The notes beneath the pieces were generated by a model, which ran no database searches, was not told the origin of the DNA, and was given only the letters and a program-made list of their open reading frames with translations. Of a stretch of DNA of 43,977 nt, positions 19,681-43,391 are shown piece by piece. Origin of the DNA: Stenomitos frigidus ULC18 (GTDB lineage Bacteria > Cyanobacteriota > Cyanobacteriia > Leptolyngbyales > Leptolyngbyaceae); contig NZ_PVWK01000108.1 in the NCBI RefSeq assembly GCF_003003795.1, forward strand, positions 1-43,977. The letters are read 5' to 3'. Position 1 is the first letter of the stretch. Every line of letters starts with the position of its first letter. The position numbers were made by a program, and so were the translations under genes.

Positions 19681-20997
19681 ATGAGAGCGCTTACAGTGCT
19701 TTCAAGGATGGTTTATTTGTTCGCCAAATTACGTAGTTTGTTTAAGGGGCAGCGGCAAACACTCTGGCTAAAAAGTTTACTGGCACGTAACCCACTGAAC
19801 TTGTCGCGTTGGGTACTTTGCTGGGTTGCGATCGGCATCGGTAGCGGCTTGTTCGCGGGACTGTATTGGAGCGTACTGGAGTGGCTGACACAATGGCTGC
19901 GATCCTTCGAGGGAGTCAGTTTGCTACTGATTATGCCATTAGCAGGTCTGCTCATTGGCTTAGTTATTCACTGGCTGGGCAATCCAGGTGAGATCAGTTT
20001 AATTGTTGACAATATTCACTTTTGCGGCGGACGCATTGATGCACGAAAAAATCCTGCCATGCTTCTGACGTCGTTAATCAGCATTTCGGCAGGCGGCAGT
20101 TTAGGACCTGAGGCCCCGATGGTGCAAGTTACAGGCTCTCTGGGGACGTGGGTTGCCGATCGCCTGCAGCTAACAGGCGAAAACCTGAGAACGTTAAGTC
20201 TGGCAGGCATGGCAGCAGGCTTTACAGCCTTGTTTGGCGCACCGCTGGGAGGGGCTTTCTTTGCGTTAGAAATCCTCCATCATCATCATGTTTTGGAGTA
20301 TTACGAAGCCATCTTGCCCGCGATCGTTGCAAGCTGTGCCAGTTACCTCATCTTCATTTTGATTACTCATTTGGGAATGGCTCCCACTTGGGCGTTTCCT
20401 CAATATCACGTTGATCGCCTTGATGACTTTGTTCTCGCAAGTCTGTATGCCCTGATTGGCGCAGTGGCAGCCTGGGGCTTTATTTATCTGTTCAACCTTT
20501 GTGCCTGGGCATTCGCTAAAGTTTCTCTGCCGCTTTATATTCGGACGACACTAGCAGGTTTAATCCTGGGTAGTCTAGCCTGTTTCTTGCCGCTCACTCG
20601 TTATTTTGGTCATGAAGAATTGAACGGTATTGTCGAAGGTCAATTCACCGCCGTTATGCTCTTGCTTTTAGCCGTTGCCAAGATGCTTGCGATCGCAGTC
20701 ACAGTGAACGGTGAGTGGCGTGGGGGGTTCATTATTCCCCTCTTTTTTACCGGAGCCTGTCTTGGCAAGGCGATCGCTCTCCTCATTCCTGGTACACATC
20801 CTGCACTGGCAATGATCGCAACGATGGCAGCGCTAAATGCTGCAGTCACTCGGACGCCCATCAGCACAACGTTGCTGCTTACCAAGCTGACAGGGTTTAC
20901 GCCCTTTGCTCCCATCCTGTTTGCGAGTTTAATTGGCTTTTTTCTCTCACCCAAGCTGCCGTTAATTAAGGCTCAGCTAAAGGCAACTCTCAGCTAG
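19681..20997 (+). CDS. ClC-family chloride channel or transporter
   Basis: The 438-residue protein is hydrophobic throughout, with about ten or more membrane segments in the ClC layout. The selectivity signatures are readable: GGSLGPEAPMVQ (138-149), containing the external gating glutamate Glu144, and WRGGFIIP near 355-362. There is no C-terminal CBS domain. Where E. coli ClC has the internal proton glutamate (IIEEM), this protein reads FALEILH, so that residue appears to be Ile. By family knowledge this favours a channel or uncoupled transport over strict 2Cl-/H+ exchange, but alignment by eye is not proof. The gene stands alone; a second possible start is Met10. Confidence 0.88.
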   Translation: MRALTVLSRMVYLFAKLRSLFKGQRQTLWLKSLLARNPLNLSRWVLCWVAIGIGSGLFAGLYWSVLEWLTQWLRSFEGVSLLLIMPLAGLLIGLVIHWLGNPGEISLIVDNIHFCGGRIDARKNPAMLLTSLISISAGGSLGPEAPMVQVTGSLGTWVADRLQLTGENLRTLSLAGMAAGFTALFGAPLGGAFFALEILHHHHVLEYYEAILPAIVASCASYLIFILITHLGMAPTWAFPQYHVDRLDDFVLASLYALIGAVAAWGFIYLFNLCAWAFAKVSLPLYIRTTLAGLILGSLACFLPLTRYFGHEELNGIVEGQFTAVMLLLLAVAKMLAIAVTVNGEWRGGFIIPLFFTGACLGKAIALLIPGTHPALAMIATMAALNAAVTRTPISTTLLLTKLTGFTPFAPILFASLIGFFLSPKLPLIKAQLKATLS

Positions 20998-25179: not shown

Positions 25180-25957
25180 TGCAGCGTAAACAGCGTTTGA
25201 TTTAGCTGTACGGGAGTGAGTGTGAAATCTTGCGTTCAGCTTTTGTATAACTTCAACCAAGGGAAGAGGTATCAACCAAGAAAAGGCTCTACACTCTTAG
25301 GTGTGCAGCAACGTTTGACTTCCTGCTTTTTCGACTAATGAGGTTTGGCTCAATGGTCAAGCGATCGCTTCAGCTATCACCCGTTGAGATTAAACAAGCC
25401 AAACAAGCTCTCTTTTGAAGCTCGCTTTGCACCGTCAAGGGGCAGCTTTGACCTGCAAATTATCCCAAAACCTGTTTTAGTGAGTGGCGAACAATTAGAC
25501 CCTCCCGAAGCACAGCCTGTTTCAGAGCCAGTCTCTCTTGCTGCTCGTTTTCACAACCGCAGTCTTGCCAAGCCGATCGCTTTGCATCAGGTCCCAAAAA
25601 ATACAGGTAACGCTTATGAATCCACTTTCCGCGCCTCAAACAACCTTATCCTCTCAATCAGGAAGGGCTTAAAACTCTGGTTGAACTGGATGCAGCATTC
25701 CTGACGATTATTAGCCTTCTGATACTCTCAGCAACGCGCTTTCAAAGAGGCAATGCCAATGCTGCTCCAAGGTATCGGTCTCTGCCCAAATGGATGCAGT
25801 CTTCCTTTCGCTTCAAAGCGCGTCCCAAGCCTCTGTGTCGTCGCTGCCGCTATTTCAGCCGTAATTCCTACCTTCCTGTGCGCTTCATCCAGTCACCGTA
25901 CTGACCCAACAAGCAGTTGATTGTGCAGATGAGGACCCACATAGAGAGGCGAAACGA
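25180..25957 (+). other. Scrap zone with broken gene remnants
   Basis: I see no intact gene here. ATG 25353 begins a 21-codon frame (MVKRSLQLSPVEIKQAKQ) that resembles the helix-turn-helix start of cyanobacterial NACHT or pentapeptide-type regulators, then stops at 25416. A 119-codon frame at 25345-25704 has no protein-like features of its own. From about 25830 the sequence reads LCRRCRYFSRNSYLP and, after a frame change, CALHPVTVLTQQAVDCADED. That pattern recalls a small Cys-rich cyanobacterial protein, now frameshifted and ending in the tandem array at 25967-25969. All assignments are tentative. Confidence 0.4.
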
Positions 25958-26041
25958 GTTGCAGAGTAGAAGTTGCAGAGTAGAAGTTGCAGAGTAGAAG
26001 TTGCAGAGTAGAAGTTGCAGAGTAGAAGTTGCAGAGTAGAA
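25958..26041. repeat. Six perfect tandem copies of a 14-bp unit
   Basis: GTTGCAGAGTAGAA is repeated six times without change or spacer (25958-26041). The unit length is not a multiple of three, and each copy carries a TAG. It lies 77 bp before the first gene of the accessory cluster and begins inside the 3' end of a decayed small gene. Confidence 0.95.
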
Positions 26042-26118
26042 AAGAAGATGGCTCAAACATTTTTCTCTACTGCATCGATCGCGATCTCATCAAGCTGTTG
26101 ATTGTGCGAGGGATTCTT

Positions 26119-30114: not shown

Positions 30115-31680
30115 ATGGTGGTTTCCACTATAGAACATGAACAAGCAGCGACTACGCTTGACTACTCCACGTTAGACCTGTCTAATCCATGCGTGTTGCT
30201 AGAAACATTGCAAACACTGCGGCAGCTCGTGGTTCAGGACGGGCAAGACATTTTTGACTCGTGGTGTTCGCCCCAGCGTTGCGTAGCAGTATCGCGGATT
30301 CAGCGACAGGTGTTTCTTAGCAGTGGACTCAATCTTGCTCATTACATGGCGCTACGCCGACACGACCTCCGTCCGCTGCAAGCTGCCTTAGTGCCCTGGG
30401 GTTTATCTTCTCTGGGTCGTCTGGAAGGGCGAGTGATCCCCAGCTTAGATGCGGTCATTGCCACTCTGGGAGCCATCTGTAAAGTCAATCCGGCGACGCT
30501 GCCCAGCCGTCCTGCGCTTCAGGAGTTTCTGGAGGGCGATCGCCTCCTGCACCAACAGACCGAAGACGTCTTGGGCCAGACCACAGGGGAACGCCGAGTC
30601 AGAATTATGGTGACCTTGCCCACCGAAGCCGCCAGCGATGACAACTTTGTGCGGGATCTGCTTCAGCGCGGCACCAACTGTGTTCGCATTAACTGTGCCC
30701 ACGACAACGCTGATCTTTGGGCGGCAATGATTGACAATGCCCGTCGCGCCGAGACCGAAACCGGACATAGCTGTAAGGTTTTGATGGATTTAGCAGGACC
30801 GAAACCCCGGCTTGATGAAGTGATCGCGCCTGATCACAAGCATCGCCTCCTGCAAGGGGACTGTCTGGTTTTAACCCATGACTTGCCTGACCCGAAAGAT
30901 GCGACCTGTTTCCGCGCAACGTGTACTCTGCCCGAAGTGATCGATCGCTTGCAAGTGGGCGCAACCGCCTGGATTGATGATGGTCGCATTGGAGCGATTG
31001 TGGAAGCGCTCACCGATCAGGGTGTTCTTCTTCGCATCACCCATGCCAGCTTAAAGGGAAGCAAACTGCTGCCAGACAAGGGGCTTAACTTCCCCGGTAC
31101 AGATTTGCAACTCAGCCCACTGACGGCTAAAGATCGACAGGATTTAGCGTTTGTCGCCGCCCATGCCGATATTGTGGGGTATTCCTTTGTGCAATCTGCC
31201 GCTGATATAAAGCTACTCCAGCAGGAGTTAGCCGCGCAGATGACTCAGCCCCGCGAAATTGCGATTATGGCGAAGATTGAAACGCCCCAAGCCGTCAATA
31301 ATTTACCGGCATTAATGGTGCAAGCAGCCGGTCAACAGCCGTTTGCCGTGATGATTGCAAGAGGTGATTTGGCGATCGCGATCGGGTATCAACGACTGGC
31401 GGAAATCCAAGAAGAAATTCTCTGGCTCTGCGAAGCGGCGCATATCCCGGTCGTTTGGGCGACTCAGGTGCTAGAAAATCTAGTGAAAAAGGGCATTCCC
31501 TCACGGGCAGAAATGACGGATGCAGCAATGGCAGAGCAGGCTGAGTGCGTCATGCTCAACAAGGGTCCCTTTGTTGCCGAAGCTGTGACCATGCTGGATG
31601 ATGTCTTGACGCGGATGCAAGCACATCAATTGAAAAAAACATCACAACTCCGGGCACTCCATTCCTGGTCGGGATCGTAA
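30115..31680 (+). CDS. Pyruvate-kinase-like protein with N-terminal extension and no C-terminal domain
   Basis: Residues about 160-500 form a pyruvate kinase TIM barrel. RVRIMVTLPTEA opens it, NCAH (193-196) stands where the active-site N-x-S-H lies, MDLAGPKPR replaces LDTKGPEIR, and AIMAKIETPQAV (Lys387, Glu389) is the catalytic signature. MIARGDLAIAI supplies the metal-binding Asp, and WATQVLENL...PSRAEMTDAA matches MTQMLESM...PTRAEVSDVA. About 155 residues precede the barrel, including HYMALRRHDLRPLQ, LSSLGR and RVIPSLDAVIATL. The barrel ends near the C-terminus, so the usual regulatory C-domain is absent. It may convert phosphoenolpyruvate to pyruvate without allosteric control, or do something related. 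The start ATG has AGAGG upstream. Confidence 0.8.
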   Translation: MVVSTIEHEQAATTLDYSTLDLSNPCVLLETLQTLRQLVVQDGQDIFDSWCSPQRCVAVSRIQRQVFLSSGLNLAHYMALRRHDLRPLQAALVPWGLSSLGRLEGRVIPSLDAVIATLGAICKVNPATLPSRPALQEFLEGDRLLHQQTEDVLGQTTGERRVRIMVTLPTEAASDDNFVRDLLQRGTNCVRINCAHDNADLWAAMIDNARRAETETGHSCKVLMDLAGPKPRLDEVIAPDHKHRLLQGDCLVLTHDLPDPKDATCFRATCTLPEVIDRLQVGATAWIDDGRIGAIVEALTDQGVLLRITHASLKGSKLLPDKGLNFPGTDLQLSPLTAKDRQDLAFVAAHADIVGYSFVQSAADIKLLQQELAAQMTQPREIAIMAKIETPQAVNNLPALMVQAAGQQPFAVMIARGDLAIAIGYQRLAEIQEEILWLCEAAHIPVVWATQVLENLVKKGIPSRAEMTDAAMAEQAECVMLNKGPFVAEAVTMLDDVLTRMQAHQLKKTSQLRALHSWSGS

Positions 31681-33186: not shown

Positions 33187-33334
33187 ACCAACCAGGATTG
33201 ACCATCTGTAGGGACGTTAATGTCCTTGAAATGGTTCAGCGATCGCCGCTTGCAACTCAGTCAGGTCATTCCTGGCATGAAGCCAATTTATGGGGTCGGC
33301 GATCGGGTACTAACGATCGAGTTGAGCGGCAACA

Positions 33335-33892
33335 ACAGAACCTCTACCAATTCAGACCGATCTTCATGGCGTCGATCTTGTGCCTGGCAACATCAATTTA
33401 AGTGGGGCAGAGCTAGAACTGGCAGTGGCAGATATGAGAGACTATCGGCTAAAAGAAGCGTTAAGTGCTGTTATGGGCAAATACGATTTCATTTTTATTG
33501 ATTGCCCTCCTAGTCTTGGCATCTTGAGCTATATCAGTCTTGTAGCGGCAACGCATGTCCTGATTCCCATTCAAACGCAGTATAAAGCCCTCAAAAGAAC
33601 AGAGCTTCTTCTCAGTACAATCGCTCGTGTGCGATCGCGTGCCAACAAAACGTTAAGTGTTGCAGGCGTAGTGCCTACAATGCATGAATCCAGAACCGTA
33701 CAAGGGATCATGTCCTTACAGTCCATTCAGGAACAATTATCTACAATTGGCACTGTCTTTCCAACCATCCCTCGTTCGGTAAGCTTTGCCGATGCGTCTC
33801 AGGAACACATACCGTTGGCACTTTACAGCCCTAAACATCCAGCAGTGCCTTTGTTCAATCAGATTGCTCGTAGTTTAGAAAAACTGTCATGA
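33335..33892 (+). pseudogene. parA: parA pseudogene, N-terminal P-loop region missing
   Basis: The frame reads PLPIQTDLHGVDLVPGNINLSGAELELA, YDFIFIDCPPSLGILSY (the Walker B-type IDCPP), THVLIPIQTQYKALKRTELLL and SFADASQEHIPLALYSPKHPA, the C-terminal two-thirds of a plasmid-type ParA partition ATPase. The KGGxGKT-type Walker A region is absent. DNA from 33187 to 33334 gives no ParA match, only the unassigned RLQLSQVIPGMKPIYGVGDRV. Without the P-loop the product could not hydrolyse ATP. The stop (TGA) overlaps the parB start as ATGA, so the operon junction is preserved. Confidence 0.85.
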
Positions 33893-34813
33893 GTGTAAGA
33901 AAGCGCACCAGTCAGCCTTACAAATCAAAGGTGTTGATGCTCTCTTTGGTGAAACAGAGCAGATAGAGACAGAGGATCGCTATATAGCAACGGCTGACCT
34001 TGCTCCATCTGGTCAACAGCCACGGAGGTACTTCGATCCAGAAAAACTGAACCAGCTTGCCGAGTCAATTAAGCAACACGGCATTTTAGAGCCGTTGTTG
34101 GTGTGTTTTACGGCGCATGGCAAATATGAGATTGTTGCCGGAGAACGCCGTTATCGAGCGGCAACGATGCTGGGATTTACTGAAGTTCCTGTAGTCATCC
34201 GAGATTTTAGCGATCAAGAGGCTCTACAAGTTGCCCTGATTGAAAACCTGCAACGAGAAGACCTGAATCCTATCGAGGAAACCGAGGGTATTTTAGAGTT
34301 GGTAGCACTTCGTCTACAAAAAGATGTTGAGTAAGTTGTCACCTTGCTCAGTCAAGCCGCCCACCCAGAACGCAACTCTGTGGATAACGTTATCCACAGA
34401 GAAGAATAGCAAGTACTCCAAAATATTTTTGATACTGTTGGACGCTTTACCCCTGAGAGCTTCCGTACCAATCGCCTGCCTCTATTAAATTTACCAGTTG
34501 ATATTCTGAACGCTTTAAGGGAAGGAAAGATTGCTTATACCAAAGCGCGGGCGATCGCCCGCATAAAAGATGAGGAACAACGGTCTAAGCTGCTTCAGCA
34601 GGCAATGGCTAAAAACCTATCGCTCAATGAAATCAAAGCAGCAATTAAAGAACTCACGCCAGAAGTAGAGCCGACGCCTGAGAAAGTTCTAGTTGAGCGG
34701 TTGGGTGAGATTGCTAAGCGGTTAGGAAGAGTGAAACCTGGGATAATCGCAAGAAACGCGATCGTATTACTAAATTGCTGGATGAATTGGATAAGTTAAC
34801 TGCAAATAGCTAA
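33889..34813 (+). pseudogene. parB: parB pseudogene with at least four lesions
   Basis: Reading across frames gives a complete ParB: MSVRKRTSQPYK, GVDALFGETEQ, QQPRRYFDPEKLNQLAESI, HGILEPLLV, GERRYRAATMLGF, IENLQREDLNPIEE, VGRFTPESFRTNRLPLLNLP, ARAIARIKDEEQR, and a C-terminal DRITKLLDELDKLTANS. Lesions are a frame shift near 33925, an in-frame TAA at 34332-34334 (probably GAA before), an in-frame TAG at 34407-34409 (probably TGG before), and a frame shift near 34740. Accumulation of this many changes indicates long inactivity. No parS site was recognised. An exceptional palindrome lies inside the gene. Confidence 0.9.
34376..34401. promoter_or_regulatory. Perfect 26-bp palindrome of two opposed DnaA boxes
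   Basis: CTCTGTGGATAAC (34376-34388) is followed directly by its exact reverse complement GTTATCCACAGAG (34389-34401). Each half contains a consensus DnaA box, TGTGGATAA at 34379-34387 and TTATCCACA at 34390-34398. It lies within the decayed parB. It could be a replication-control site of the former replicon, or a hairpin-forming insertion. Confidence 0.85.
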
Positions 34814-35285: not shown

Positions 35286-36107
35286 CTACAAGCGCACAGC
35301 ACCACTGCCTTTACTAGAGTTGGCATAAGCAACTAAACAAATGATGAGCATCGTTAAGACTAGGCTGATCCGTCCTGTACCAAAACCCACGCCGCCAAGC
35401 GCTTGAGCTCTACCGATCCAATCGGCGAAGGACGCGCCCAGTGGTCTAGTCAGGATATAGGCAAGCCAAAAAGCTCCAACCGCGTTGCCGCCTGAACGCC
35501 AGTAGGCGATCGCTGGTGCAGCGAACAACACGGCAAACAGCAAGCCTGACGTGAAGTAACCTAGCCCTAGTGTGGAGGCTGTCATATCACCAGCTGCTGT
35601 GCCCAGTGCGAACGTAGCCATGACTGCGGCCCAGTAAAAGCACTCGCGCCGCCAGGTGTTGATCTGCTGCATCGACAACGTTTTTTCGCTCCGATACCAA
35701 ACAGCAAAAATCAGGCTCAGTAATGCCGCAAAGCCGATGGTGGAGCTGAGGTACGAAACACCCAAGCCAACATGAATGGCATCAGCAAGCATCGTGCCGA
35801 AGATGGCGACCATCGTGATGGCTAACCAATAGACCCAGGGAAGATAGCGACGGACGGCAAACTGGATGAGTAACGCCACGGCTAAACCAATGCCCCCAAG
35901 CGCCACCGCAAAAAGCGGATCCATCTGGTGTACGAGGTAATCGGAAGTCGTTTCGCCCATACCCGTCGTGAGCAACTTGATCAGCCAGAATAAGACGGTC
36001 ACTTCTGGCAGCTTTTTGACCAGACTCCTTCCACCCTGTAACGCTTGATCTGAGTTGTATGGTTTTGGCTTCATCTCTGAGTGGCTGTGAGTTGGGATTT
36101 TGCTCAT
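35286..36107 (-). CDS. DUF347/COG4705 membrane protein, short paralogue
   Basis: About 273 residues from ATG 36107; starts at 36158 and 36074 are also possible and none has a clear ribosome site. The protein has about eight membrane helices arranged as four pseudo-repeats, each beginning with an aromatic-Trp pair and holding a Gly-to-Asp motif: LFWLIKLL...GETTSD, VYWLAIT...GTMLAD, FYWAAVM...GTAAGD and FWLAYIL...GASFAD. This is the DUF347 repeat of COG4705 proteins, whose function was unknown to me. The repeated acidic residue inside the membrane suggests ion or small-solute transport. A larger paralogue lies just upstream in the same direction. Confidence 0.78.
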   Translation of the reverse strand: MSKIPTHSHSEMKPKPYNSDQALQGGRSLVKKLPEVTVLFWLIKLLTTGMGETTSDYLVHQMDPLFAVALGGIGLAVALLIQFAVRRYLPWVYWLAITMVAIFGTMLADAIHVGLGVSYLSSTIGFAALLSLIFAVWYRSEKTLSMQQINTWRRECFYWAAVMATFALGTAAGDMTASTLGLGYFTSGLLFAVLFAAPAIAYWRSGGNAVGAFWLAYILTRPLGASFADWIGRAQALGGVGFGTGRISLVLTMLIICLVAYANSSKGSGAVRL

Positions 36108-36269
36108 GATAGGGCGTGTCAGTGATCGCCCCGTAGACTCTGTGCTTCCAATCGACAAAGCTTTAAGGAATCGTCAACGCTTTAACGTTTTTCTGTGAAG
36201 CCTTTTGAGGTTTACCGCTTTGGCTTGTGCGCAGGATGGTAAGCGCGATCGCCATATAACATCCTCCAT

Positions 36270-37553
36270 TCATACCGACCGGTGAGCGGTGAGCGGTCGG
36301 AGTTCAAAGTTAGCTGTGGCAGGTAATTGGGAACGTTCTACCGACTGCCGCTGATCAAGCGCATCAAGGGTCGAAAGGAGTGACTCCAGTGACGTTTTAC
36401 AGGCTGTTGGATCTGGAGGTTGGGCGCGCAGTTGTCTCAGGACATGATCGATCGACTTGTCAACCGAAGACCACTGCGAAGGATTCATGGGTTTAAGGCG
36501 AGACTGTGCCTTGTCCCAGGCGACTTCAAGATCACCAACGCGAGCTGTGGCAGCAGATAGATTGCCTTTTTGTACCGAGCTCAAGGTATCGGCTGCGATG
36601 GTGCGAAAGCTGGACAACTCTCCCAGCGGAGAGGTTGACGAAGTGGATGCGATTGCTTCATGTTGCAGCTCAGTGTGACGCCAGTAGTAGCCTGACCCGG
36701 CTGTGATCACAAGAGCAGACACAGCCAATGCGATTTGCCAGGAAGCAGTGTATCGTTTTCGATTGGTTTCTACATTGGCGACTGGATGGGTGATTAAATC
36801 CCGCTTGGTGATCGAAAGAAAGATAACAGTCAGCAGAATCGCTGCCATAAAGATGGCACTTGTAACGGTTGCCCCCAGCCCTAAGCCGCCATTTGATCGG
36901 GGCTGAGAGAGAAAATCACCTAACGAAGCACCCAGTGGACGCGTCATGATATAGACAAGCCAGAAGGACAAGACAGGGTTGAGACCAAAGCGCCAAGCGA
37001 TGGTCACGAAAGCAATCACTACAGCGACGATGATGCCTGTGGTGAGGTAGCCCAGCCCAAGGCTCTCTGCCATTAGATCTCCCGTGGCGGTACCTAGAGC
37101 AAACGTGACCAGGATCGCTAACCAGTAAAAGGATTCCCTTCGCCGGGTAAAAATGGAATGGATCGAGAGTGTTCTCTCTATGGAGAACCAGGCGGCAAAG
37201 GTCAGCGCCAAGGCGATGCTGAAGATAGTTGTGCTCACTTCAAGAGCAATACCCAATTTGTCAGTCAAATTATCTGTAAAAAGGGTGCCAAAGATACTAA
37301 TGAGGACAACCGTCAACCAGTAAAGAGCAGGTGTATATTTTTTTGCTTTAAACTGAAAAAATAAGGCAATCAGGAGCACGACTCCTACGACCATAGAGGT
37401 GCCAGTCAAGCCAAAACCAAGACTGACGTTCAAGAAATCAGAGGCAGTCTCGCCAACCGTCGTGCAGAGGATCTTGATGATCCAGAAATAAATCGTGACC
37501 TCAGGAACTTTGCTGAGCAAGCTTGTGTTTTCGTCTCCCTGATGCAGGCTCAT
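36270..37553 (-). CDS. DUF347/COG4705 membrane protein fused to a C-terminal helical domain
   Basis: This 427-residue protein has the same four pseudo-repeats as its neighbour: VPEVTIYFWIIK...GETASD, LYWLTVV...GTLFTD, FYWLAIL...GTATGD and FWLVYIM...GASLGD (residues about 15-250). A further membrane helix (about 273-290) leads to a soluble helical region of about 110 residues (SVQKGNLSAATARVGDLEVAWDK, DKSIDHVLRQLRA, CKTSLESLLSTLDAL). From my recollection of proteobacterial relatives, this helical region also occurs next to DUF347 genes and two-component systems, which hints at a sensing role. The start has GGAGA at good distance. It is the upstream gene of the pair. Confidence 0.8.
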   Translation of the reverse strand: MSLHQGDENTSLLSKVPEVTIYFWIIKILCTTVGETASDFLNVSLGFGLTGTSMVVGVVLLIALFFQFKAKKYTPALYWLTVVLISIFGTLFTDNLTDKLGIALEVSTTIFSIALALTFAAWFSIERTLSIHSIFTRRRESFYWLAILVTFALGTATGDLMAESLGLGYLTTGIIVAVVIAFVTIAWRFGLNPVLSFWLVYIMTRPLGASLGDFLSQPRSNGGLGLGATVTSAIFMAAILLTVIFLSITKRDLITHPVANVETNRKRYTASWQIALAVSALVITAGSGYYWRHTELQHEAIASTSSTSPLGELSSFRTIAADTLSSVQKGNLSAATARVGDLEVAWDKAQSRLKPMNPSQWSSVDKSIDHVLRQLRAQPPDPTACKTSLESLLSTLDALDQRQSVERSQLPATANFELRPLTAHRSV

Positions 37554-37827
37554 TTCGCTTTCTCCGTATAATCGTCAATTTTTGTACAGAACAAAATTTT
37601 GATAAGAAGAGCAGGCAAGAGTTTCAATCAATCAAGCATCATTCGATGAAACCTTACAGATCAAGTTAAAACATAGGTTGGATTGACTGAAATGCCCGTG
37701 GCGTTCAAGATCAGCAAGTTTATGGTTTTGCTGCTGACAGTTAACTATTCAATGAAACCTTGCACAAAGCCGATGAGGAGAGCGCGTAAAATGTGTGTGT
37801 TCTCCATGACAACCCTTACATTCCTAA

Positions 37828-38160
37828 ACTCTTTTACGCTCTTTCCTGTCCACTCTTAAGCATTATCTGGCCGCCCGGCGAGGCTCTCTGCTGCTGCTGC
37901 TGTTCGGTGTCTTGCTGCCGTTTCAGATTTTTGGCGATTTAGCCGAAGATGTCTGGGAGCACGGGAGGTTTCCTTTTGATGTTCCCATCCTGTTGGCGGT
38001 TCATTCAAGCGCTCAACCGCAACTCGATCACGTTGCCTCAGTCTTGTGTTTTGCTAATGGCTTCAACGCTGACATCGTATGCTCCTGCTTCGCTTTGCTA
38101 TGGGAATGGTTGGTTCTTCACTGGCAAGGCAACGCGTTCAAACCAAATTTCCGACCGTAG
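37828..38160 (+). pseudogene. Truncated PAP2-type phosphatase gene
   Basis: The frame reads LKHYLAARRGSLLLLLFG, VLLPFQIFGDLAEDVWEHG, FPFDVPILLAVHSSAQPQLD and then loses similarity at VLCFANGF. This is the N-terminal membrane helix and entry segment of membrane PAP2 phosphatases (FGELAEDVW...FDVPIL). The downstream catalytic KxxxxxxRP, PSGH and SRxxxxxH motifs are absent. No good start codon precedes it; an in-frame TAA lies at 37825. A 37554-37820 spacer upstream shows nothing else. The intact enzyme would dephosphorylate lipid phosphates. Confidence 0.65.
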
Positions 38161-38181
38161 ACGACAAGCGCGCTTAACCGT

Positions 38182-38409
38182 CTACGGTCTGGTGTCAAGG
38201 TTACGTATTGCGTCTTGAGTATAGTCAGCAAACGTCAAGAACTTGGAAAGACGATCGCTGCCAGAGCATTGAGTGTCAATCGCCTTTTCAAGTGCTTGCC
38301 AATCCGTGCTCGCCTCAACGTGAGAGCAAATCTGTAGCCATCGCTGGTGAGTCATTCCCCAGAGGGGCATAATACTCAAGCCGCATTCAAAGGAGCTACT
38401 TTTCTGCAT
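38182..38409 (-). CDS. Small hypothetical protein, copy 1
   Basis: A 75-residue frame contains MPLWGMTHQRWLQICSHVEAS, TDWQALEKAIDTQCSGSDRL and SKFLTFADYTQDAIRN. A second, broken copy of its C-terminal part lies at 38617-38823, sharing a 51-bp block with one mismatch. The duplication and readable conservation support coding, but neither copy has a known family. There is no membrane segment. Confidence 0.45.
   Translation of the reverse strand: MQKSSSFECGLSIMPLWGMTHQRWLQICSHVEASTDWQALEKAIDTQCSGSDRLSKFLTFADYTQDAIRNLDTRP
38211..38261. repeat. 51-bp direct repeat, copy A
   Basis: The block beginning CGTCTTGAGTATAGT recurs at 38617-38667 with a single mismatch (C to T). The copies are 406 bp apart in the same orientation, and both fall in the 3' coding part of the small minus-strand genes. 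Confidence 0.9.
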
Positions 38410-38431
38410 TGCCTACGCATGAATGCTGTCT

Positions 38432-38596
38432 TTAGTTTGGGTCTGAAGACTCCATTTCCATTTGAGAGGAGTGCAACCCGAAATCACAATAGCTGGCGAA
38501 GGTAAGCAAAAAAATCATAATCATGGTAGCTGCAAACACAGTCATAGCAGCTTTATGAGCAACTTTTTTCACTAGATCGAACAGTGGCGGCTTCAT
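38432..38596 (-). CDS. 54-residue single-pass membrane protein
   Basis: An ATG at 38596 opens MKPPLFDLVKKVAHKAAM, then a hydrophobic helix TVFAATMIMIFLLTFA (about 19-34), and an acidic tail HSSQMEMESSDPN. The basic N-terminus and acidic C-terminus predict an inside-to-outside single pass. The frame lies exactly between the two copies of the duplicated small gene. The ribosome site is weak. Small membrane proteins of this sort often partner transporters or sensor kinases; that is only a possibility here. Confidence 0.45.
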   Translation of the reverse strand: MKPPLFDLVKKVAHKAAMTVFAATMIMIFLLTFASYCDFGLHSSQMEMESSDPN

Positions 38597-38616
38597 ACTT
38601 TAGCTGCCGGAAATTA

Positions 38617-38823
38617 CGTCTTGAGTATAGTTAGCAAACGTCAAGAACTTGGAAAGACGATCGCTGCAAAGAAACGCTCAATGCCAATCGTCTTTTCGAG
38701 TTCTTGACCTTTTCGGGCTAATTTAAGCGCAGCAGAGGCATCGGATCGATGTGCTCTTCTCACTTTTGCTTCCTGGCTACTAGCCGGGATTTTTTTTAGA
38801 GACAGCAGGAGATAAGCACACAT
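38617..38823 (-). pseudogene. Broken second copy of the small hypothetical gene
   Basis: The minus strand reads AALKLARKGQELEKTIGIERF, then shifts frame. The next frame continues DRLSKFLTFANYTQD, matching copy 1 (DRLSKFLTFADYTQD). The 51-bp copy B block is at 38617-38667. The upstream part of the gene differs from copy 1, so the duplication covers only the 3' end or the 5' ends have diverged. Confidence 0.55.
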
Positions 38824-38910
38824 CTCAAAGCACTGTGCATCTTTCTCAGTTCTTGACGTTCATTGCTTACATTGGCAGACATCATCCAACATCAACAGGA
38901 AGTAAAGACA

Positions 38911-39396
38911 ATGAACACCGCAAGAAAACGGGTGCTGCTGGGCGTTTTTATTGGCACCCTAGGCTTAAGTGGACTGGCTCAGTTTGTGTATGCTAACCAA
39001 CCGCAGCCAGTCGCTGTGGTGCCACAAAAACATCGCGCTCAAGCCACTGAAACCAGTGATGGCGATGGTGAGACGAACGATGACATAAAAGAGCAACAAG
39101 AGGCAGTGAAGTTACAACCGTTGGCTAAAATCACCGCACAGCAAGCGCAACAGGTAGCTGAAGCGGCTCAGAAGACCAAAGCTAGCAAGGTCAAACTGGA
39201 GAACGAAGAAGGCAGTTTAGTCTATACAGTGATCGTTGGTCAGCAAGAAGTGACGGTAGACGCTGGTAATGCTCGCATTCTCTACACTGAACCGCTTAGA
39301 CAAGAAAACCACACATCTGATGTCAGCCATCCTCGGAGTAGCATTCAAGTCTCTCAGGCGAGCGATGGGGATGGTGAAACAAATGATGATGGTTGA
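38911..39396 (+). CDS. Exported PepSY-domain protein with two acidic repeats
   Basis: ATG 38911 has CAGGAAG upstream and encodes 161 residues. A signal segment (VLLGVFIGTLGLSGLAQFVYA) is followed by a linker with SDGDGETNDD (49-58). A single PepSY domain follows (about 72-125: ITAQQAQQVAEAA, KLENEEGSLVYTVIV, VTVDAGNARIL), and the identical decapeptide SDGDGETNDD returns at 151-160, one residue from the end. PepSY domains are linked to protease inhibition and to sensing by neighbouring kinases. The DxDxxTxDD pattern resembles a calcium-binding loop. The gene converges on the kinase gene with an 8-bp gap. An in-frame start at 38863 is less likely. Confidence 0.82.
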   Translation: MNTARKRVLLGVFIGTLGLSGLAQFVYANQPQPVAVVPQKHRAQATETSDGDGETNDDIKEQQEAVKLQPLAKITAQQAQQVAEAAQKTKASKVKLENEEGSLVYTVIVGQQEVTVDAGNARILYTEPLRQENHTSDVSHPRSSIQVSQASDGDGETNDDG

Positions 39397-39404
39397 ACCC
39401 GCGA

Positions 39405-40694
39405 TCACACGGCTGGTAAACGCACTGTGAAACAGCTACCCACACCGAGCTGACTACTAACTGTGATGCTGCCATCGTGAGCGTGAGCAATGGCTTGGGC
39501 GATCGCCAACCCCAAACCAGAACCACCGTCCCAATAAGAACGAGACGCATCAGCCCGCCAGAAACGGTCAAAAACTCGTTCTAGATGTTCTGGTGCAATG
39601 CCCATACCCGTATCTTGTACCGTGATCACTAACGTGTGCTCTAGCTGACTGGCTTGTACCGCGATCGTACCGCCAGCAGCCGTGTAATGCAGTGCATTCG
39701 CGATGAGGTTGTCAACCAAGCATGTGAGTTGAGCCGCATCCCCTTTGATCGCTAACGACTCAGCGACGTGAGACTTGAAGTGCAGTTGCTTCGCGGCGGC
39801 TTGCGGCACATACTGTTGCAACAACCCTGTCAGGAGTGGCGTTAAATTGAACGTTTGCCCATCGGTTTGAGTATCCTTTTCGGTACGTGCCAGCAGCAGC
39901 AGGTCTTCCGTCAGCTTCGTCATCTGGCTCGTCGCACTGGCGATCGCGGCAAACTTTTCTCGATCCGTCGGGCGCATCGCTTCGGGATATTTCAGCGCCA
40001 CAGCGGCATTACTCTTGATTACCATCAACGGGCTACGTAGCTCATGCGCTGCATCTGCCGTAAATTGCTGTAGCCGTTGGAAGCTCGCCTCGATAGGCTG
40101 CATCGCTTGACGGGTCAGCCAAAGACCGCCAAGTCCACTCAGCAGCAGCGCTAGCAAAATACCACCCCCTAACCCCAAGTCTAATTTCTGAAGATTCTCA
40201 TCAACTTCTGCCAGTGATTGGCTGACGCGCACATAGCCAAGCAACTGCTGATCGTCACTCCCCAAAATGGGTAGCGTGACCGCTTGAAGCCGAGGCTGAC
40301 CCGTCTGAATCTGGACTGCATCAGCGGTAGCTAAGGGCAACGAAACAACTGCCTTGCCCTCCTGGTTAAGCAGTTTGCCCTGCGAGTCAAACCACTGAAT
40401 GGCTTGACCACGCGCGGTTAAGTCTTGAGTGGAAAAGTCTTCACCCACCCTAAAGCGACCGTGATCAAATTCGGCATTGGCAGCCGCCCCCTGTCCCAAA
40501 GCGCTCAGTCTTTCGGTGAGTTGATGGGTTAAGCTGCGGGTGAAAACGACTCGCACTCCGATCGCAAACGTGCTCAGAATGGATGCCAAAACAACTAGAT
40601 AAGAGACTAGCAAGCGGTGGCGAAGGTTCTGAAACACAGGCTTAGTTTGTTTTTGCTCCTTCTCCATCCATGCCGCAGCTACACGCCTTAGCAC
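39405..40694 (-). CDS. Membrane histidine kinase of a two-component pair
   Basis: The 429-residue kinase has two membrane helices (about 29-50 and 175-195) enclosing an extracytoplasmic sensor of about 125 residues. The catalytic core is complete: H-box FTADAAHELRSPL with His217, N-box NLIANALHYT, G1 DTGMGI, F-box VFDRFWRAD and G2 GGSGLGLAI. It should autophosphorylate and pass phosphate to the response regulator encoded upstream. Layout and pairing resemble the cyanobacterial RppB/NrsS-type kinases, some of which sense metals, but the sensor domain does not reveal the ligand. Translation starts at GTG 40694, overlapping the regulator stop by 7 bases, or at ATG 40667. Confidence 0.9.
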   Translation of the reverse strand: MLRRVAAAWMEKEQKQTKPVFQNLRHRLLVSYLVVLASILSTFAIGVRVVFTRSLTHQLTERLSALGQGAAANAEFDHGRFRVGEDFSTQDLTARGQAIQWFDSQGKLLNQEGKAVVSLPLATADAVQIQTGQPRLQAVTLPILGSDDQQLLGYVRVSQSLAEVDENLQKLDLGLGGGILLALLLSGLGGLWLTRQAMQPIEASFQRLQQFTADAAHELRSPLMVIKSNAAVALKYPEAMRPTDREKFAAIASATSQMTKLTEDLLLLARTEKDTQTDGQTFNLTPLLTGLLQQYVPQAAAKQLHFKSHVAESLAIKGDAAQLTCLVDNLIANALHYTAAGGTIAVQASQLEHTLVITVQDTGMGIAPEHLERVFDRFWRADASRSYWDGGSGLGLAIAQAIAHAHDGSITVSSQLGVGSCFTVRLPAV

Positions 40695-41362
40695 TCCACG
40701 CGAAGCCGATAGCCGACTCCATAGACCGTTTCGATCACGTCTGGAGCACCTGCCGTCTTGAGCTTACGGCGCAGGTTTGTGAGATGGGTTTTAATCGTTT
40801 CTTCTCCAGAGGACTGATCAAACGACCAGAGCCGATCGAGGAGGAACGAGCGGGTCAGCACTTGGGTGGGATGCTTCAAGAAACACTCTAGGATCTCGTA
40901 TTCTTTGGGCGTTAACACAAGGGCATTGCCACCATATGTTACGCTGTGCAGGCTTGGATCAAGTTGCAACGCTTCGTAGGTCAGAATCGGTAACTTCGTT
41001 TCGACACTGCGACGGGCTAACGCTCTGATGCGCGCCGCCAACTCTTCCAGCTCAAATGGCTTGACTAAATAATCATCGGCTCCAGCATCCAACCCAATCA
41101 CTTTATCCGTTGTAGTATCACGTGCCGTCAACATGAGAATGAGGGCACTGATCCCAGCGGCGCGTAACTGCTTGCACAAACTGATGCCATCCAGTCGAGG
41201 GAGCATGAGATCCAACAAAATCAATTCATAGGTCACGGTCTGTACCCATTCCCAACCTTCTACACCGTCTCTAGCCACATCAACGACGTGGCTTTGGTGT
41301 CTTAAGTCCTCTACCAGGGGGCGAGCAATGCGATCGTCATCTTCGACTAGCAAAATCCTCAT
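40688..41362 (-). CDS. OmpR-family response regulator
   Basis: From the ATG at 41362 (MRILLVEDDDRIARPL) the product is 224 residues. The receiver domain has the acidic pocket EDD (7-9), phospho-acceptor Asp51 in ILLDLML, Thr79 and Lys101 in LVKPFE. The C-terminal winged helix reads LTPKEYEILECFLKHP...LDRLWSFDQSSGEETIKTHLTNLRRKL and ends YGVGYRLRVE. It should bind promoter DNA when phosphorylated by the kinase translated from the overlapping downstream gene. An in-frame upstream extension to 41566 lacks receiver features and is rejected. Likely targets are the neighbouring phosphodiesterase, PepSY and DUF347 genes. Confidence 0.92.
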   Translation of the reverse strand: MRILLVEDDDRIARPLVEDLRHQSHVVDVARDGVEGWEWVQTVTYELILLDLMLPRLDGISLCKQLRAAGISALILMLTARDTTTDKVIGLDAGADDYLVKPFELEELAARIRALARRSVETKLPILTYEALQLDPSLHSVTYGGNALVLTPKEYEILECFLKHPTQVLTRSFLLDRLWSFDQSSGEETIKTHLTNLRRKLKTAGAPDVIETVYGVGYRLRVEC

Positions 41363-41858
41363 TGCAGCCACTGTGAGAGTTGTTTGGTAGCAGTGAAGGT
41401 TGGCTTTTGGGCAGTCATGGTGAAGATGAACGTCAGCAGGAACACGTAGATCTTGCAGAGCCGTATGGTAATCTGTCGATCGAGCTATTCTCAACGCTTG
41501 ACTGAAGGCTAAGTCACAACGTGCGTCTAGCTTCACTATACCCTCGACTTTGAGAAAGCTTTTCATTCACCTGTAGAGCCTGCTGCTCTTGTGCCTGGAC
41601 TCTCTGCGATCGTCCATCAGGCTTCTTCACTTCCAGTGTGACGCAGACTCACCGTGTAGCCAATGCGAAAGCCGCTTTTGGTGAGCGTTTGAGCAGCCTG
41701 CTTTTTTCACGCTGGCGGCTGCTTCGTCATGTATCCAATCAGGTAAGCGGAGTGGCAGCCTTAGATTCATCTTCGATCTTTAACCAAATCAGACACTGAT
41801 TACGAGCGAACGATCTTCGGCTCGTGACCCAACCATCATTTAGTGGAGAAATTTAACA
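41363..41858. other. Divergent promoter region between the response regulator and the phosphodiesterase
   Basis: No coding sequence was recognised. GGAGA lies at 41845-41849 before the GTG at 41859. Both the two-component operon and the secreted phosphodiesterase must be transcribed from here, making it a natural place for response-regulator sites. I could not identify a direct repeat strong enough to call. Confidence 0.4.
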
Positions 41859-43391
41859 GTGAAGAAATTTAATTTCATGTCTCAAGGGAAACGGATTTTT
41901 AACTTCGCGATCACTGCCATCCTTGGTGGAGTTGCCGCTATTCTGGCGCTGCCATCAGTCCAAACCGTTAGTGCGGCTGAGAAGCCAACCATCAAACACG
42001 TCTTGCTGATTAGCGTTGATGGGTTACACGCCGTTGATCTCGCCAATTATGTCAAAACCCATCCCGACTCGACGCTGGCAAAACTGAGCGATCGCGGCGT
42101 TACCTACACCAAAGCCTTTGCTTCACGTCCCTCTGATTCCTTTCCAGGTTTGCTCGCAATAGTGACAGGTGGCACGCCCCGCTCCACGGGTGTGTATTAC
42201 GACAACAGCTACGATCGCAAGCTGTCGCCACCCGGATCGAATTGCAGCACCATTGGCACTGAAGTCGTGTTGGACGAATCGATCGACATCAACCCAGACT
42301 TGCTCAGCGGTGGCGGCAACCCAGGCTTCAATGCCAGCAGTATTGATCCAGCCAAACTGCCGCTTGACCCCAGCAACGGTTGCCAACCCGTCTATCCTCA
42401 CTCATACTTACGCGTCAATACTATCTTTGAGGTCATCAAAAAAGCAGGTGGTTACACCGCCTGGGCTGATAAGCATCCAGCGTACGATCTGGTGAATGGG
42501 CCATCCGGTCAAGGGGTGGACGATCTCTACACACCTGAGATTAACAATGCTGACAGCCCCACCAGTAAGGTTGCGGCTACAGAAGCCTACGATGACATCA
42601 AAGTTACCGCCATTCTCAACCAGATTGATGGGAAAACCGCCACGGGTGCTCCTGCTACTGTACCAACCATTTTTGGTATGAACTTCCAGGCAGTCAGCGT
42701 GGGAGAAAAATTGCCCACGGCTGGTTACACAGATGCAGCCGCTACTCCTAGCGCCGAGTTGCAGGATGCTCTGGAGCATACAGATGCCTCTTTAGGAAAA
42801 ATGGTGGCAGAACTGAAAGCACAAGGGCTGTACAAGTCAACCCTGATTATCATTAGCGCGAAACACGGACAATCGCCCATTGACCCCAGCAAAGTGAACA
42901 AACCAGGTTCCTTGCTCAAGTTAATTCCCGCGATCGCACCACTGGTTGCGAAGGCAACGGAGGACGATATTGCCCTACTCTGGCTGACTGATCAGAGTAA
43001 GACTAGTGACGTTGCAGATGCTCTCAGTGCCAACAAAGCCGCAGGCTTTATCCGTAAGCTCTACGTCGGTGAGAGCCTAGCTAGCTTGTTTGACGATCCC
43101 TCCACGGATTCACGCACCCCAGACATCATCGTTCAGCCGATTCCAGGCACCATTTATACAACCTCGACGAAGAAGATTGCGGAGCATGGTGGTTTCACCC
43201 TGGATGATACCAATGTGGCTTTGCTGGTCTCCAATCCCAGATTTGAGCGCGAAAAAGTGCGGGATGTCGTCACGACCACGCAGATTGCGCCGACGATTTT
43301 GAAGGCACTTGGTCTCAAGCCAAGAGCGCTTAAAGCGGTGCGCCTGGAAAAAACGCACGTATTGCCAGCGCTAGAATTGAACGACGACTAA
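41859..43391 (+). CDS. Secreted alkaline-phosphatase-superfamily phosphodiesterase / nucleotide pyrophosphatase
   Basis: The 510-residue protein has a signal peptide (FAITAILGGVAAILALPSVQ, cleavage near VSAAE). The type I phosphodiesterase/NPP fold follows: LLISVDGLHAVDL with metal-ligand Asp54, RPSDSFPGLLAIVTGG where Ser94 stands at the usual Thr/Ser nucleophile, a DAPxxD-like later region around ALEHTDASLGKMV, SAKHGQSP in place of the usual SDHGM, and AEHGGF with a final metal His. The altered SAKHG block could change metal binding. It probably hydrolyses phosphodiester or pyrophosphate bonds outside the cytoplasm; the substrate is unknown. The start is GTG 41859 after GGAGA, or ATG 41877. 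It is divergent from the two-component operon. Confidence 0.82.
   Translation: MKKFNFMSQGKRIFNFAITAILGGVAAILALPSVQTVSAAEKPTIKHVLLISVDGLHAVDLANYVKTHPDSTLAKLSDRGVTYTKAFASRPSDSFPGLLAIVTGGTPRSTGVYYDNSYDRKLSPPGSNCSTIGTEVVLDESIDINPDLLSGGGNPGFNASSIDPAKLPLDPSNGCQPVYPHSYLRVNTIFEVIKKAGGYTAWADKHPAYDLVNGPSGQGVDDLYTPEINNADSPTSKVAATEAYDDIKVTAILNQIDGKTATGAPATVPTIFGMNFQAVSVGEKLPTAGYTDAAATPSAELQDALEHTDASLGKMVAELKAQGLYKSTLIIISAKHGQSPIDPSKVNKPGSLLKLIPAIAPLVAKATEDDIALLWLTDQSKTSDVADALSANKAAGFIRKLYVGESLASLFDDPSTDSRTPDIIVQPIPGTIYTTSTKKIAEHGGFTLDDTNVALLVSNPRFEREKVRDVVTTTQIAPTILKALGLKPRALKAVRLEKTHVLPALELNDD

Follow-up and report, generated by a model that had tools for sequence, protein, structure and literature searches.

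A DUF347, PepSY and two-component gene cluster of the cyanobacterium Stenomitos frigidus as a variant of the mmf cassette

Two genes for DUF347 membrane proteins lie next to a PepSY gene, a two-component pair and a secreted phosphodiesterase gene in the cyanobacterium Stenomitos frigidus ULC18. Do these genes form one system, and what could it do? They occupy positions 35286-43391 of a contig of 43,977 nucleotides (nt), which was analyzed at its full length and is called the window below. Coordinates refer to the window unless another sequence is named; L-numbers denote the loci compared and G-numbers the genomes compared, with G000 being the host genome (about 7 Mb, cyanobacterial by the presence of PsaA and PsaB). 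A first-pass annotation took the cluster for a single envelope system that had no described function, perhaps in metal or phosphate handling. We found that the module is a variant of a gene set already named mmf, the function of which is unexplained. It is most likely a self-contained module for metal or envelope stress that was acquired, and we think it probable that it is a horizontally acquired accessory stress module working like the mmf cassette of Tn6048. The module comprises the following features, the last line being that of the decayed genes at its left edge.

35286..36158, minus strand: DUF347 protein, short copy, 290 amino acids (aa), second of the pair (PF03988 four times, E 7.7e-51)
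36270..37553, minus strand: DUF347 protein, long copy, 427 aa, fused to an MmfD-like helical domain (PF03988 four times, E 7.2e-60)
37834..38046, plus strand: PAP2 phosphatase remnant, N-terminal part only (tblastn, 54% identity over 72 aa to a PAP2 fragment of L121, E 5e-17)
38218..38251, minus strand: box 1, directed at the DUF347 genes, the first of which lies about 660 nt downstream (exact pattern match)
38624..38657, minus strand: box 2, in a 55-nt unit that shares 96% identity with the one around box 1
38691..38724, plus strand: box 3, direct repeat (pattern search)
38840..38873, plus strand: box 4, 37 nt 5' of the probable PepSY start codon (exact to the wider pattern, one mismatch to the narrower)
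38911..39396, plus strand: exported PepSY protein, mmfA-like (PF03413, E 1.8e-5)
39405..40694, minus strand: sensor histidine kinase (HisKA, HATPase_c)
40688..41362, minus strand: response regulator of the OmpR/PhoB type (Response_reg, Trans_reg_C)
41859..43391, plus strand: secreted type I phosphodiesterase, probable accessory member (PF01663, E 3.8e-25)
33248..34799, plus strand: decayed parA/parB (C-terminal half of AAA_31, ParB_N fragment, broken frames)

Pfam matches and coordinates bear out the cluster as first described, with its exported PepSY protein, its overlapping OmpR-type regulator and kinase, and its secreted phosphodiesterase; what fell away from that description are several tiny genes, discussed below. 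Starting at the regulator, one passes the kinase, PepSY (facing the kinase), a 1.4-kb gap, and then the two DUF347 genes. The DUF347 proteins score 170.6 and 199.5 bits against PF03988, for a gathering score of 28.2, and are the only ones found in the genome (eight repeat matches, all on the window contig). The PepSY protein is barely above the PF03413 cut-off (25.4 versus 24 bits). Its open reading frame (ORF) spans 38863-39396(+), with a probable ATG start at 38911 and, by inspection of the sequence, a signal-like N terminus. The kinase and regulator genes overlap by 7 nt, and the regulator ORF is open to 41566, with homologues beginning at the position equivalent to 41362.

This gene set has a named counterpart. 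On plasmid pAKD16, the order is a PepSY "peptidase," a phosphoesterase, a DUF347 protein, a signal-peptide protein, a second DUF347 protein, a regulator, a kinase, a hypothetical gene, and the tni genes of Tn6048, which corresponds to mmfA-B-C1-D-C2-R-S. The name mmf reportedly goes back to Van der Auwera 2009. We used as a comparison the mmf cassette of Tn6048 (Cupriavidus metallidurans CH34; pAKD16, pHB44, pBS64, and pMOL98), whose naming on plasmids is tabulated in PMC4914505 (excerpts). The long DUF347 protein is 54% identical to mmfC1 of pAKD16 (E 7e-89) and the short one 36% identical to the second DUF347 protein, mmfC2 (E 3e-32). The C-terminal domain of the long copy matches the separate mmfD (45% over 97 aa, E 7e-29), so that the helical domain noticed in the first pass is MmfD fused to MmfC1; the same fused form occurs in Paenibacillus, Clostridium, and Bacillus. 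The regulator shares 37% identity with MmfR, and the PepSY protein matches mmfA weakly in a pairwise comparison (E 1e-4). The window module and mmf have in common PepSY, PAP2 (a remnant here), two DUF347 proteins, the MmfD domain, an OmpR-type regulator with its kinase, and a mobile or acquired context. They differ in the fusion of MmfD to the first DUF347 protein, in the orientation of PepSY (which in the window diverges from DUF347 and converges with the kinase), and in the regulator, which in the window belongs to another clade with its own box. Furthermore, the window has lost PAP2 (there is no intact mmfB), has gained a phosphodiesterase, and has decayed par genes at one edge.

The interpretation given in the first pass stands as to recurrence, as shown below, but the set cannot be called undescribed, even if a paper of 2025 still calls the function of mmf unknown (excerpts of PMC12029693). 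As for metal or phosphate handling, the literature on relatives elsewhere speaks for metal and we found no support for phosphate. Tn6048 is highly induced by Zn and Pb (PMC2864759), DUF347 has been tied to metals in Frankia and in a diatom, and operons of UppP and DUF347 are among lead-induced genes, in a passage that leaves the organism open (excerpts of PMC4531530).

Do the genes of the module recur together elsewhere? Scanning genome contigs for matches to the long DUF347 protein, we obtained 73 loci, to which we added 13 stretches from relatives, four loci from a plasmid collection, and the window itself. Leaving out duplicates or end fragments (L113, L115, and L126-L129), 85 loci were counted. 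The density of matches per kb fell between 0-2 kb and 4-6 kb from DUF347, and stood at the third value given here at 6-10 kb: from 0.047 to 0 and 0 for PepSY, from 0.059 to 0.008 and 0.012 for PAP2, from 0.091 to 0.019 and 0.034 for regulators, and from 0.123 to 0.015 and 0.024 for kinases. Family-free clustering within 3 kb gave the same groups, since kinase/regulator (85 near, 22 far, 48 loci), PAP2 (23 near, 5 far, 21 loci), and PepSY (15 near, 0 far, 15 loci) were those found in most loci after DUF347 itself. By Fisher tests of near (<3 kb, 579 genes) against far genes (at least 5 kb, 479 genes), which ignore relatedness, kinases (47 versus 11, p 1.6e-5), PepSY (17 versus 0, p 3e-5), PAP2 (25 versus 6, p 0.002), and, more weakly, regulators (40 versus 18, p 0.017) were enriched near DUF347, and phosphodiesterases were not significantly so (1 versus 0). 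The PepSY profile is narrow because it was seeded from module members.

When loci are counted at the genus level, a regulator and a kinase both lie within 4 kb in 34 of 76, PAP2 in 22, PepSY in 17, and all four families in 10. PepSY is concentrated in Proteobacteria (6/7) and in loci labeled cyanobacterial (9/17). The recurrence of DUF347, PepSY, PAP2, and two-component genes, which the first-pass annotation had noted for proteobacteria and proposed to verify by neighbor enrichment, is therefore real and extends beyond them. The layout of the window itself is found in Calothrix brevissima NIES-22 (L094), Nostoc paludosum (L096), Amazonocrinis (L098), and HT-58-2 (L101). One locus encodes an apparent fusion of two DUF347 units, of 518 aa with eight repeat matches (L120 9234-10790, in G105).

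The phosphodiesterase is a looser associate. In the window, the nearest DUF347 gene is 4.3 kb away, and a phosphodiesterase within 4 kb was found in only 2 of 76 genus-level loci (L123 and L086), being missing from nearly all. A homologue at E 1e-60 or better occurs in 1 of 193 other genomes (G167), where it is directly beside the same module and divergent from the regulator, as in the window. In Terrabacter (L086), part of a related protein is encoded 1.6 kb away from DUF347, before UppP and PAP2. Because of these two neighborhoods, the protein may belong to the module, as first proposed, in the role of an accessory member.

The first-pass annotation also listed a PAP2 remnant and tiny genes for membrane and soluble proteins, to be sought in the gap at 37.6-38.9 kb. 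The former is confirmed: the remnant aligns to residues 7-78 of the PAP2 fragment of L121, lacks the catalytic half, and matches a PAP2 profile of our own (E 7.6e-4); PF01569 gives no match in the window contig up to E 1. In the genome of L121 (G109), PAP2 has the same orientation and is broken into two pieces, and the four loci with the layout of the window have an intact PAP2 gene after the second DUF347 gene. The tiny genes found no support. The minus-strand ORFs at 38182-38409, 38432-38596, and 38641-38823 have no Pfam match above cut-off, and for 38432-38596, the one searched more widely, 193 other genomes of the phylum yielded no relative. We rejected all three as genes; the gap holds instead the PAP2 remnant and four boxes. 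A UppP remnant suggested by eye at 37742-37804(-) was also rejected (tblastn with the UppP of the genome gave only E 0.035, with an internal stop), and a PF02673 search found a single UppP copy in the genome, located elsewhere.

The boxes occur among repeats: two copies of a 55-nt unit (38207-38261 and 38613-38667) are 96% identical, and shorter copies accompany them in the gap. At the core of these copies is a direct repeat, spaced by 11 bp and followed by a -10-like hexamer, and such spacing is typical of PhoB-type regulators. The pattern TCTT-N7-TCTTGAC-N10-TA-N3-T was drawn by eye from the window, L094, L096, L098, L101, L118, and L123, and sites in these loci are not independent evidence because the pattern derives from them. 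Exact sites in the 7-Mb genome number four, all within the module at 38218-38873. With the narrower pattern and up to two mismatches, the window has five sites, for 0.05 expected from shuffles; four are in the module and the fifth, with two mismatches, is outside it at 20574. Three one-mismatch sites elsewhere in the genome (G000 C105:196257, C129:82325, and C157:35656) are less like the module boxes than like each other (TTTTG-C/T-CAGA-...-TCTTGAC) and perhaps represent another repeated element.

Beyond the host, exact sites were found in 10 of the 19 DUF347 loci of the phylum (17 with a cyanobacterial label and two, L089 and L099, assigned to the phylum separately), and none in the remaining DUF347 loci of the set. 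These 10 loci have 17 sites, 11 of which point at a DUF347 or PepSY ORF at most 500 nt away. Whole searches of 13 other DUF347 genomes gave exact sites in 10, with 22 sites versus 3 for the reversed pattern. Of the 22, 20 adjoin module genes, and 14 of these 20 (in G292, G293, G296, and G118) are independent of the derivation of the pattern; the other two sites are in G294 (at 1943728) and G296 (C868). One of these genomes, that of Phormidesmis priestleyi (G293), has three separate box-bearing DUF347/PepSY loci (L170, L171, and L042). A box of this kind, conserved beside cyanobacterial module genes, appears to be new: among the papers that our literature searches listed, none appeared to describe it, which is not proof that none exists.

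Which gene does the box accompany? Of 19 box-bearing genomes without DUF347, we fetched 10, choosing by eye those whose sites came close to the consensus. In six (L161, L162, L163, L164, L166, where it is a fragment, and L173), a regulator of the same family lies within 4 kb of the box; none was found within that distance in the other four (L165, L167, L168, and L174). Five of the six regulators were placed by a tree in the clade of the window regulator, which clusters with 17 other regulators from cyanobacterial loci (18 rows, support 99). This group unites the box-linked regulators with the cyanobacterial ones adjoining DUF347 and is separate from MmfR of CH34 (L114); one distant regulator from a cyanobacterial locus, L125, falls outside. 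The box travels with the regulator, not with DUF347, as box-linked regulators form one group apart from MmfR and L114 is box-less. The box would be bound by this regulator, and we regard it as a candidate binding site. Matches to the regulator at E 1e-80 or better turned up in one of the six congeners searched and in one of four further members of the family; in the congener G301, its 3.7-kb contig has no box near the regulator at up to two mismatches.

The box loci without DUF347 include PepSY, PAP2, and small secreted proteins rich in Lys and His, and FTR1 and NRAMP permeases are a few kb off in two of them. The paired small secreted proteins (L173 5521-6036 and L166 4573-5271) are possibly metal-binding or cationic peptides. 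Box-bearing cyanobacterial loci with PepSY, regulator, and kinase were seen in Calothrix NIES-22, Phormidesmis priestleyi, G060, G247, and G203. They share with the window the box and the regulator family, PepSY in most cases (not in G060), and PAP2 in some, but G060, G247, and G203 lack DUF347 and the Calothrix DUF347 pair comes from other lineages. Among named families, the cyanobacterial RppA/RppB, which we take to be NrsR/NrsS, score best with the window proteins, both of which remain below the NCBIfam equivalog cut-offs (230.7 bits for the regulator with RppA, cut-off 250; 285.4 bits for the kinase with RppB, cut-off 400). UzcRS of Caulobacter, considered as the closest system, was dropped, as the papers listed included no primary one on UzcY/UzcZ. 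The literature on EmbRS and on Pseudomonas J380 proved, in the excerpts available, to be unrelated (J380 being a DUF3470 match).

How did the module arrive in this genome? Few genomes of the phylum have DUF347 (12 of 292). The two membrane proteins labeled COG4705 and called paralogous in the first pass are both DUF347 proteins, but they are 42% identical and on different branches, which rules out a recent duplication as their source. The long copy joins a Nostocales metagenome-assembled genome and Phormidesmis at support 99, with Paenibacillus and Clostridium alongside at support 87. The short copy, on a long branch, joins Planctomycetota, Actinomycetota, and Saccharibacteria at support 99 and does not group with the second DUF347 protein of the other cyanobacteria sampled, in a tree that excluded mmfC2. 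To the left of the DUF347 genes, at 33220-34799, a ParA gene without its N-terminal part and a ParB gene in broken frames sit between chromosomal-looking genes and the module. The congener G302 covers the flanking genes at 87-93%, with similarity ending at 33247; the right edge of the stretch is beyond the contig end. The simplest reading of these sequences is that the stretch was acquired, perhaps from a plasmid. The finding of DUF347 copies from different branches adjoining decayed parA/parB at a synteny break appears to be new.

The DUF347 proteins themselves give hints on function. Models of the long and short copies (predicted local distance difference test scores of 87 and 88) each have eight membrane-length helices, two per repeat, followed in the long copy by a ninth long helix and the four-helix bundle of the fused domain. 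E35, D39, Q67, D94, E140, and D159 are invariant across 74 DUF347 proteins, and K27, R205, and D213 are kept in 73. By inspection of the alignment, D39, D94, D159, and D213 each come five residues after a conserved Gly, one per repeat. Conserved charges of this kind within the membrane would suit a transporter of cations or of cation-coupled substrates.

Direct observation covers the gene set and its recurrence, the four boxes, the decay of PAP2 and of the par genes, and the synteny break; beyond these, we infer the following mechanism. The kinase would sense an excess of a divalent metal cation or the resulting envelope damage. The phosphorylated regulator would bind the tandem TCTTGAC-type repeats, spaced by 11 bp just before the -10-like hexamer, a geometry ahead of the -10 that is that of PhoB-type activation. 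It would then turn on PepSY and, via the leftward boxes, the DUF347 genes. PepSY could be a periplasmic buffer or provide feedback on the kinase. The DUF347 proteins would be 8-helix transporters, with the conserved Asp of each of the four repeats in the membrane; they would carry either a metal cation or a substrate coupled to cations through the inner membrane, and the MmfD bundle fused to the long copy would be an accessory domain. PAP2, now lost, and probably the phosphodiesterase would act on phosphate esters at the outer face. Since the genome has no other exact box site, the circuit appears to be local and self-contained.

Several results weigh against this explanation. The mmf locus of CH34 (L114) has no box at up to two mismatches, and the signal may differ from that of mmf since the regulator belongs to a different clade and L114 is box-less. 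No box, again at up to two mismatches, directly precedes the first DUF347 gene, the leftward ones being at least 0.66 kb away. A search of 292 genomes of the phylum gave 28 exact sites, spread over 23 genomes, versus 22 for the reversed control (counted from the listing), so that many single sites are due to chance, and true box sites are distinguished solely by their position beside module genes. The regulator excess near DUF347 is weak, and non-significant at 4 kb (41 versus 18, p 0.068), and the densities of regulators and kinases rise slightly again at 6-10 kb. Structure searches do not support a transporter: no fold in the PDB did so, the DUF347 core giving at best E 0.37 with Foldseek and, with VIA, Z 7.5 (root mean square deviation 4.8 over 197 residues) for HGSNAT (8vlu_B). 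No chain stood out, which does not imply a novel fold. Sequence searches of the PDB with the DUF347 profile and with PepSY gave nothing significant, and the fold-search matches of the long copy were set aside as uninformative for the core, being driven by the four-helix bundle or by fusions of G protein-coupled receptors with BRIL. Finally, in the available excerpts, an mmf-bearing C. gilardii strain and the type strain grew equally in Cd, Co, and Zn (PMC12029693), and pHB44, which has mmf, is linked to the import of Fe and V rather than to export (PMC4914505).

A different, and in our view rather unlikely, explanation is that DUF347 serves the cycle of undecaprenyl phosphate (C55-P), or another transport of lipids at the inner membrane, with metal induction being secondary. 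The trigger could be metal or bacitracin-like stress on undecaprenyl pyrophosphate. PAP2 proteins (BcrC-like) and UppP are undecaprenyl pyrophosphate phosphatases, and DedA proteins are C55-P flippases. Taken together, PAP2, DedA, and UppP are enriched near DUF347 (40/702 genes within 4 kb versus 8/479 far; odds ratio 3.56, p 0.00027; 31 of 85 loci); DedA alone gives 14 versus 3 (p 0.041) and UppP alone 3 versus 0 (p 0.21), all with p-values that ignore relatedness and multiple testing. This joint enrichment appears to be new. Six ORFs are DedA-PAP2 fusions, each with matches to the two profiles: L048 11862-13244, L070 7098-8399, L077 7442-8815, and L082 2988-4361, all within 2 kb of DUF347, and L047 4198-5574 and L043 2536-3900, the latter about 6 kb away. 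Two loci have an MprF-like gene near DUF347. One, for an MprF-like lysylphosphatidylglycerol synthase (L042 4581-6281), has a one-mismatch box 60 nt upstream; the other is from Rhizobium acidisoli (L116 9901-10938). The lead-induced operons mentioned above likewise couple DUF347 to an undecaprenyl pyrophosphate phosphatase, with UppP there in place of the PAP2 remnant of the window (excerpts of PMC4531530). Furthermore, pHB44 (mmf) and pMBUI8 (mmfA and mmfB) raised the bacitracin resistance of their hosts (excerpts of PMC4914505).

Against these points, PAP2 alone could confer bacitracin resistance, and pBS64 gave no gain over an already resistant host (excerpts of PMC4914505). The metal reports name DUF347 itself (excerpts of PMC4531530). 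In the window, PAP2 is decayed, and neither DedA nor UppP was found. One can conceive, as a tentative proposal of similarly low probability, that DUF347 is a C55-P flippase or coupled transporter acting with PAP2/UppP and DedA, which the PepSY-linked two-component system induces when metals or cationic agents trap the carrier. One cyanobacterial regulator clade with its box would then have repeatedly adopted DUF347 proteins of different origins as exchangeable effectors.

It is less likely still that generic two-component, PepSY, and phosphatase genes were gathered on an island as chance neighbors without joint function. Two-component genes are common, 31 of the 85 DUF347 loci are without any tested neighbor (some on short contigs), and the regulators adjoining DUF347 come from several clades. 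Such an assembly is nevertheless at odds with the near-versus-far enrichment and the family-free clustering, with the conserved box ahead of PepSY and DUF347, and with the occurrence of the same set on the mobile Tn6048. That the island is dead or dying, and the module perhaps no longer working, is suggested by the truncated PAP2, the broken parA/parB, and the partial duplication of the box region, but is improbable given that both DUF347 genes and those for PepSY, kinase, regulator, and phosphodiesterase are full-length open frames.

Two further observations were made outside the module. A 14-nt tandem repeat (AGTTGCAGAGTAGA) occupies 25943-26054, directly before an amine-oxidase-like gene. 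The pyruvate-kinase-barrel protein of 30115-31680 has a second copy in the genome (G000 C37:36625-38160) that is 64% identical and has an internal stop.

The mmf cassette is strongly metal-induced and mobile, with a function that is unexplained, and our analysis now gives it a neighborhood that spans multiple phyla. It also provides a candidate binding site for the regulator in cyanobacteria and a list of conserved DUF347 residues in the membrane. The hypothesis of a role in the lipid carrier cycle now competes with metal transport as the function of DUF347, and simple deletion tests could separate the two.

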